IMG/VR virus record: IMGVR_UViG_3300036791_000872
Span: 1 to 44,803 of that record
Source: a virus
Length of the DNA: 44,803 nt
Strand: one strand, 5' to 3'
This document shows, one piece after another, positions 31,054 to 31,499 of the stretch; the first letter of the stretch is position 1, and every line of letters begins with the position of its first letter. Position numbers and translations under genes: made by a program. The notes below the pieces were generated by a model. It did no database searches, was not told the DNA's origin, and saw nothing but the letters and a program-made list of their open reading frames with translations.

Positions 31054-31186
31054 GGTCATGCGGGCCGAAGCGCCGCCGGTTATCTCCTGCTAAGAGAGAA
31101 CCTGGGTTCGAATCCCAGCCGCGCTCCTCGGAGCGTGCGGGTGTTGGTCAACCACTATCCGGCACGCACCCCTCGCCCGCATGACC
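31054..31186 (+). ncRNA. Y RNA 1 (YrlA-like, Ro-associated)
   Basis: Outer stem: GGTCATGCGGG (31054-31064) pairs perfectly with CCCGCATGACC (31176-31186). The Ro-binding signature follows: GGGCCGAAG, then an inner stem GCG and GCCGG pairing with CCGGC and CGC, then GTTATC (31079-31084). This is the layout of the conserved stem of Y RNAs. Internal module: T arm CTGGG-TTCGAAT-CCCAG (31102-31118), a capped hairpin with GCTCC/GGAGC arms, and a diverged D-arm-like stretch (GTTGGTCAACCAC). No protein is encoded here. Confidence 0.85.
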
Positions 31187-31198
31187 TTCCGTTCTCCG

Positions 31199-31336
31199 GC
31201 CGCGCGGGCCGGAGCGATGCCGGTTATCTGGAACAAGAGTGCGCGGGTTCGACTCCCGCCGCGCGGTGTCGCGCGTCGCGTGTAGCTCAGTTGGTAGAGC
31301 ACTTGTCATCGGCTCGTGGCACCTCGCCCGCGCGGC
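31199..31336 (+). ncRNA. Y RNA 2 (YrlA-like, most tRNA-like)
   Basis: Outer stem GCCGCGCGGG (31199-31208) with CCCGCGCGGC (31327-31336). Signature GGGCCGGAG, inner stem CGA-t-GCCGG with TCGGC-TCG, then GTTATC. Module: T arm GCGGG-TTCGACT-CCCGC (31243-31259), CGCGCG hairpin as capped acceptor stem, then an intact D arm TAGCTCAGTTGGTAGAGCA (31283-31301). The order T arm then D arm is reversed relative to tRNA, that is, permuted. It is not a functional tRNA gene (no anticodon arm in the normal place). Confidence 0.88.
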
Positions 31337-31351
31337 TCCACTCAACCACCG

Positions 31352-31499
31352 ACGACGTGCGGGCCGGAGTGATGCCGGTTATCGCTGGCGCACGCAGGTT
31401 CGAGCCCTGCCTCGGCTCCTTCAGAGCCGTGGAGCCCTGTCTCTCCGGTCTCTTGGGGACCGTGGAACACCGGTTCACACACCTCGCTCGCACGCTCGT
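31352..31499 (+). ncRNA. Y RNA 3 (YrlA-like, adjacent to Ro60 gene)
   Basis: Outer stem ACGACGTGCGGG (31352-31363) with CTCGCACG-c-TCGT (31487-31499), one bulge and one G-U. Signature GGGCCGGAG, inner stem GTGA-tg-CCGG with CCGG-t-TCAC, then GTTATC. Module: T arm GCAGG-TTCGAGC-CCTGC (31394-31410), CGGCTC/GAGCCG capped hairpin, D-like segment with a GGTC/GACC hairpin. The 3' end lies nine bases before the ribosome binding site of Ro60. Confidence 0.85.

Follow-up and report, generated by a model that had tools for sequence, protein, structure and literature searches.

Y RNAs are the classical partners of the Ro60 protein, and their stem carries the motifs that are fixed in the array described here. 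What the loop side of such an RNA may contribute is illustrated by YrlA, for which a passage of PMC8394870 describes, in other species, a stem that tethers Rsr and a tRNA-like domain that binds PNPase. In an excerpt of PMC7790460, YrlA is considered as a possible competitive inhibitor of an anticodon nuclease. Phages also carry parts of this system. Mycobacteriophage Y RNAs are mentioned in a section of PMC12282133, with Chen 2014 as the source, and the same section suspects Y RNAs in a Listeria phage; a passage of PMC7824862 notes that some jumbo phages, a small subset, have TROVE proteins.

The locus analysed here lies in a viral record that was examined over its whole length of 44.8 kb (the window), and it comprises a tandem set of four short structured Y RNAs, which the Ro60 gene of the phage itself follows (Table 1). 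An earlier, sequence-only reading had drawn attention to the interval 31054-31499 and had proposed that it encodes three functional RNAs with covarying stems. Our explanation, to which we assign a probability of about 0.87, is that this interval holds three of the four Y RNA genes of a temperate phage, with stems predicted to be bound by Ro60 and loop modules that would set the role of the resulting particle.

Results

The array and its phage setting

Eighteen bases separate the 3' end of the array from the start of the Ro60 gene, and both are on the same strand. The product of the gene matches PF25045 (vWA_Ro60; 2e-62), PF05731 (TROVE; 2.3e-42) and phrog_850 (7.3e-90), and its closest solved relative is D. 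radiodurans RSR (PDB 2nvo, 1e-120), followed by the Ro60 chains 9nen and 1yvp. The window also encodes a portal and a major head protein and, together with the serine integrase that adjoins the array, these make the record look like that of a temperate phage; the Ro60-Y RNA module may therefore be cargo of lysogeny. Integrases, here of the tyrosine type, also lie near the Ro60/Y array in the Gordonia phages Cashline (L002, 750-1856) and BearBQ (L003, 319-1530), which again suggests lysogeny cargo. Two other recombination genes were noted on the + strand of the window, one for a second serine-recombinase protein with the Resolvase N-terminal domain only (35157-35951; 4.2e-35) and one for an ERF-family recombinase (24325-25041; Pfam PF04404, 4.2e-25).

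Table 1. Positions of the Y RNA units, their tRNA-like parts and the neighbouring genes in the window.
Feature	Position	Strand	Description
Large serine integrase, adjoining the array	28674..30221	-	phrog_95 integrase, 9.2e-92; Pfam Resolvase, Recombinase, Zn_ribbon_recom
Unit 0, minimal Y RNA (stem and loop only)	30982..31041	+	Outer stem 30982-30987/31036-31041
Unit 1, Y RNA with anticodon-like arm and T arm	31054..31186	+	R1 59.3 bits (E 7.9e-15), R2 33.6 bits
Anticodon-like arm of unit 1, UCUC-CUGCUAA-GAGA	31083..31097	+	Positions 34-36 are GCU
T arm of unit 1, CUGGG-UUCGAAU-CCCAG	31102..31118	+	From sequence
Unit 2, YrlA-type Y RNA with permuted tRNA-like domain	31198..31337	+	R1 69.3 bits (E 1.2e-17); Rfam RF02553 36.6 bits
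tRNA-like core of unit 2	31233..31306	+	T arm 31243-31259, D arm 31285-31300
Unit 3, Y RNA; T arm at 31394-31410	31352..31499	+	R1 40.7 bits (E 1.2e-9)
Ro60 (Rsr) gene	31518..33101	+	527 aa, GTG start, intact; TROVE and Ro60 vWA domains

All three of the proposed units are present as described, but the interval given for them misses a fourth. This additional RNA, unit 0, is the best match in the window of a covariance model for the outer stem (R2, described below; 30978-31045, 38.2 bits, E 1.8e-6), and its fold is more stable than those of shuffled sequences (z -3.56). It reads GGUUCU where the class has GGUUAY, as do some homologues, and an Rfam family that matches over it, a nematode sRNA (ceN72-3_ceN74-2), scores under the cut-off (E 0.19). 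A promoter scan found no promoter, and a TTGACA at 31007 was dropped as a candidate both for that reason and because it falls within the unit 0 loop. When R1 and R2 matches were merged by hand, arrays of about six units each were found at the loci L020 and L067 and one of about nine at L148, so four units are not unusual. At L148, a Chloroflexi contig, the roughly nine Y RNA matches (2875-5932) flank one Ro60 gene on both sides.

One alternative is that the stems form a cis-acting leader that controls or processes the Ro60 mRNA and are not separate RNAs. The short distance to the Ro60 start on a shared strand would suit such a leader, as would the result of a terminator scan, which found none on the + strand 3' of the array. 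Elsewhere, however, Y units can be kilobases away from Ro60 or on its 3' side (L148, 4706-5932; L065, 4814-5539), and we regard a leader as an improbable explanation of the array. Leader and separate-RNA roles could coexist, and Ro60 acting on its own leader would give feedback.

Stem pairing within the array

The stem strings quoted for the three units, along with 3' strands that match them and differ from one another, are all present at 31054-31499, and so are the fixed parts GGGCCGRAG, GTTATC and CTCGCYCGC. The outer stem consists of 11 bp in unit 1 (31054-31064/31176-31186), of 10 bp in unit 2 (31199-31208/31327-31336) with a G-U pair at 31198/31337 in addition, and of 12 bp in unit 3 (31352-31363/31487-31499), including one G-U pair and with a bulged C at 31495. 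The compensated base changes described by the sequence-only reading were recovered when the arms were aligned and swapped: positions -6, -7, -9 and -11, four of the 11, are altered on both sides with pairing kept. Every 5' arm pairs with its own 3' arm at 11/11 positions and with the 3' arms of the other units at 8-10/11. In terms of duplex energy, the 5' arm of unit 3 gives -30.1 with its own partner versus -32.2 and -33.1 in the cross-combinations (the 3' arm of unit 2 being one base off). The folds of units 1, 2 and 3 have z values of -4.96, -2.30 and -2.85 relative to dinucleotide shuffles, with 0, 3 and 2 of 200 shuffles, respectively, folding as well.

The inner stems can be written as had been drawn and they covary in homologues, but they are absent from the free minimum-energy folds of units 1-3, in which the outer stems are present. 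When both stems were enforced in units 1, 2 and 3, the folds became less favourable by 2.4, 5.7 and 6.0 kcal/mol, respectively, and this argues against a stable inner stem in the RNA alone. We weigh the comparative evidence on the inner stem, presented in the next section, more heavily than the folding energy.

Homologous units and covariation

Among 50,697 phage records, 342 contain a Ro60 relative, and the best of the full-length relatives is 48.6% identical. A search of viral contigs with a single Ro60 protein returned no relatives, but an alignment query of 15 Ro60s (that of the window and 14 from phages) did find them and gave 80 viral and 80 genome-contig loci. Y motifs precede Ro60 in Cashline, BearBQ, Sparky, LinStu and other phages. 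Two covariance models were built from units outside the window, R1 from 17 units of other Ro60 loci and R2 from 24 units of which most are stem-only; R2 covers the outer stem only (8 pairs). When both strands of the window were searched, R1 found exactly units 1-3 and nothing else, and R2 matched these three units as well as unit 0. All R1 matches (261/261) and all R2 matches (151/151), each set in 100 of 177 records, fall on the Ro60 strand, and since the 100 scanned records had been picked mostly for Y motifs in earlier scans, these counts should not be taken as frequencies. Some of the partial R1 matches, spanning model positions 28 to about 100, resemble ordinary tRNAs. A descriptor scan with a relaxed 3' triplet gave 296 matches versus 50 antisense and 113 in block-shuffled sequence; the last figure makes the scan weak alone, and our case does not rest on it.

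Covariation in homologues had been named as the check on the proposed structure, and shuffle and permutation tests detect it for both stems. In the best 150 R1 matches (149 distinct), whose alignment was fitted to the model and is hence circular, all of the outer pairs (6/6) and all of the pairs of inner helix 3 (8/8) have changed on both sides. Over the whole structure of this set, 92.6% of pair cells are paired versus 64.2% in shuffles, none of 500 shuffles being as high, and the covariation score is 0.574 versus 0.163 in shuffles; sliding the partner by 1-3 columns collapses the signal. A model-free check used units selected by the inner stem only (239 units, of which 218 are distinct and 17 antisense). 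This selection gave units 1 and 2 of the window wrong 3' ends, and the three window rows were omitted from the permutation test. In the 215 units from loci other than the window, the outer pairs at -4 to -7 form in 75.6% of cells, compared with 47.2% when partners are permuted, and none of 2000 permutations reaches the observed value. In 66 multi-unit loci, own arms pair in 76.1% of cells versus 53.1% when partners are swapped inside the locus. The matches of independent models and the covariation of both stems in homologues support the view that these are functional RNAs and not decayed copies.

tRNA-like modules and the anticodon-like arm

The loop side differs among the units. Unit 2 has the order T arm, acceptor-like hairpin and D arm, and this core is closed by a 5-bp anticodon-stem-like helix (31233-31237/31302-31306, ACAAG with CUUGU). 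Folded in isolation, the module takes this shape at its lowest energy, which is no better than that of shuffles (z 0.28). Units 1 and 3 have a T arm but no canonical D arm.

In unit 1, an anticodon-like hairpin ends four bases 5' of the T arm and is contained in the free fold of the unit. A hairpin with a 7-base loop is found at that site in 49 of the 127 distinct Y motifs that have a T arm 3' of them, and 38 of the 49 (38/127 Y+T units), including unit 1, show U33, a purine at 37 and A38. Shuffled sequences yielded 0.2 such hairpins on average and never more than 2 (500 shuffles), so the hairpin does not look like a product of chance; an earlier version of the count, which allowed a 4-bp stem anywhere, gave 24/132 versus a maximum of 3 in 200 shuffles. 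RNAalifold of the 17-unit seed alignment also places the hairpin, with changes on both sides. Of the 38 units, 18 are from IMG/VR, 14 from genome contigs and 5 from phage records, and the remaining one is that of the window; 16 of the 38 have a canonical D arm. Their triplet varies, with A34 being scarce (3/38, P 0.007 with relatedness ignored) and stop anticodons missing (0/38, not significant). A different helix, which would pair the linker 3' of the D arm with the strand 5' of the T arm, reaches 5 bp in 6/22 hairpin-less units, unit 2 among them, and in 0/16 units with the anticodon hairpin. As a general substitute for the hairpin this helix was rejected, the unit average lying barely above cross-pairing. 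We infer that the anticodon-arm modules derive from tRNAs and have retained the anticodon arm. Among the papers listed by searches of the open literature, none describes such an arm in its title or abstract opening, and we do not claim that it is undescribed.

The T arms of units 1-3 and the anticodon-like arm of unit 1, the adjoining integrase and the avoidance of A34 in the triplets all raise the question of whether the array is a relic of tRNA genes or of an attachment site, in which tRNA 3' halves that were captured repeatedly left functionless T arms and anticodon loops. We find this very improbable. The Y stem is not a part of a tRNA and it covaries in homologues, and arrays lie beside Ro60 in bacteria too and not in phages alone. 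ARAGORN predicted 0 tRNAs in the window, and the integrase of this phage belongs to the serine type, whereas it is tyrosine integrases that typically use tRNA genes for attachment. That the array is protein-coding, either through a 169-aa frame at 31012-31521 or through an extension of the Ro60 frame from 31239, has next to no chance of being correct: both frames are open, but long chance frames are common in G+C-rich DNA, the 169-aa frame has no PHROG match, the conservation is of the RNA-pairing kind, and Ro60 homology starts only at about 31518.

Discussion

How might a phage use a set of Y RNAs together with its own Ro60? The array displays a Y stem with CCGR and GGUUAU motifs, covariation of both the outer and the inner stem in homologues and an intact neighbouring Ro60. 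By analogy with known Y RNAs, the stem (bulged C, CGR, inner helix and GGUUAUC) would dock on the Ro60 ring, and the module on the loop side would decide the function of the particle by recruiting an effector. Unit 0, which has only the stem, may mainly occupy or gate Ro60. In units 1-3, the permuted tRNA-like module or its T arm may be recognised by tRNA-binding proteins. Another possibility is that these units tether Ro60 to an effector such as PNPase, a role for PNPase that was demonstrated in other species only. Such tethering could steer the decay or protection of structured RNA, in lysogeny or infection, and several loop modules on one Ro60 would provide the phage with several kinds of particle.

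A more specific idea, which we put forward tentatively and consider rather doubtful as a whole, concerns the origin and use of the anticodon-like arm. A sizeable class of Ro60-linked Y RNAs, including unit 1, may carry tRNA copies that were permuted between the D and anticodon arms and kept the anticodon arm (U33, R37, A38 and a variable, tRNA-like triplet), with the Y stem inserted at the D/anticodon junction and not replacing the anticodon arm. On Ro60, these RNAs could present their anticodon loops to anti-phage anticodon nucleases and so serve as decoys or sensors, or they could recruit anticodon-loop enzymes. The frequency of the arm (38/127) frames a testable role, namely whether the tRNA mimicry is close enough to meet anticodon nucleases or anticodon-loop enzymes.

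Returning to the array as a set of Y RNA genes, a covarying repeat that was spotted by eye in a phage has turned out to be a Y RNA array. Phage Ro60-Y RNA modules are widespread, with Ro60 being carried by 342 phage records, and the Rfam YrlA model gives scores below its cut-off both to this array and to the named phage loci that were scanned.

The units are Y RNAs, as Ro60 has for partners: they are encoded beside a Ro60 (TROVE) gene, they have an end-pairing stem with a bulged C and CGR and an inner stem that ends in GGUUAY (the inner stem not being part of the free fold), and they are found by profiles, R1 and R2, that were built without the window. At gathering scores, Rfam places nothing over the window. 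With the YrlA type (RF02553; S. Typhimurium YrlA) the array shares the Ro60 link and the Y stem, and unit 2 shares in addition the arm order and the anticodon-stem-like closing helix. The tRNA-like domain of YrlA (T arm, acceptor-like hairpin and D arm) is found in unit 2 only, where RF02553 scores 36.6 bits (E 2.2e-6) against a gathering cut-off of 69; units 1 and 3 gave no YrlA match at E 10 in a low-threshold Rfam search. YrlA matches in the named phage loci L002-L010 are also under the cut-off, the best reaching 46.8 of 69. Units 1 and 3 differ from YrlA in having no canonical D arm, and unit 1 further differs in its closed anticodon-like hairpin, which is absent from the Rfam consensus. 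The Deinococcus radiodurans Y RNA (RF01053), which is associated with Rsr, shares the stem order and the motifs, and the fixed stem motifs are visible in the Rfam alignment of that family; the family model gives unit 1 a weak score of 18.3 bits (E 1.5) against a gathering score of 80.

The Y RNAs of actinobacteriophages (L002-L007: Cashline, BearBQ, Sparky, prophiGD43A-5, LinStu and Sixama) likewise consist of tandem units just upstream of a phage Ro60 with the same motifs, and some of them, like the units of the window, have T and D arms or anticodon-like arms. Their Ro60 proteins are about 45-50% identical to that of the window phage, the number of units and the contents of the loops differ, and two of these phages have a tyrosine integrase in contrast to the serine integrase found here. 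Phage Y RNAs beside Ro60 have already been described, and the array adds another example; the variant with the anticodon arm is the less expected part and the one that is worth following.
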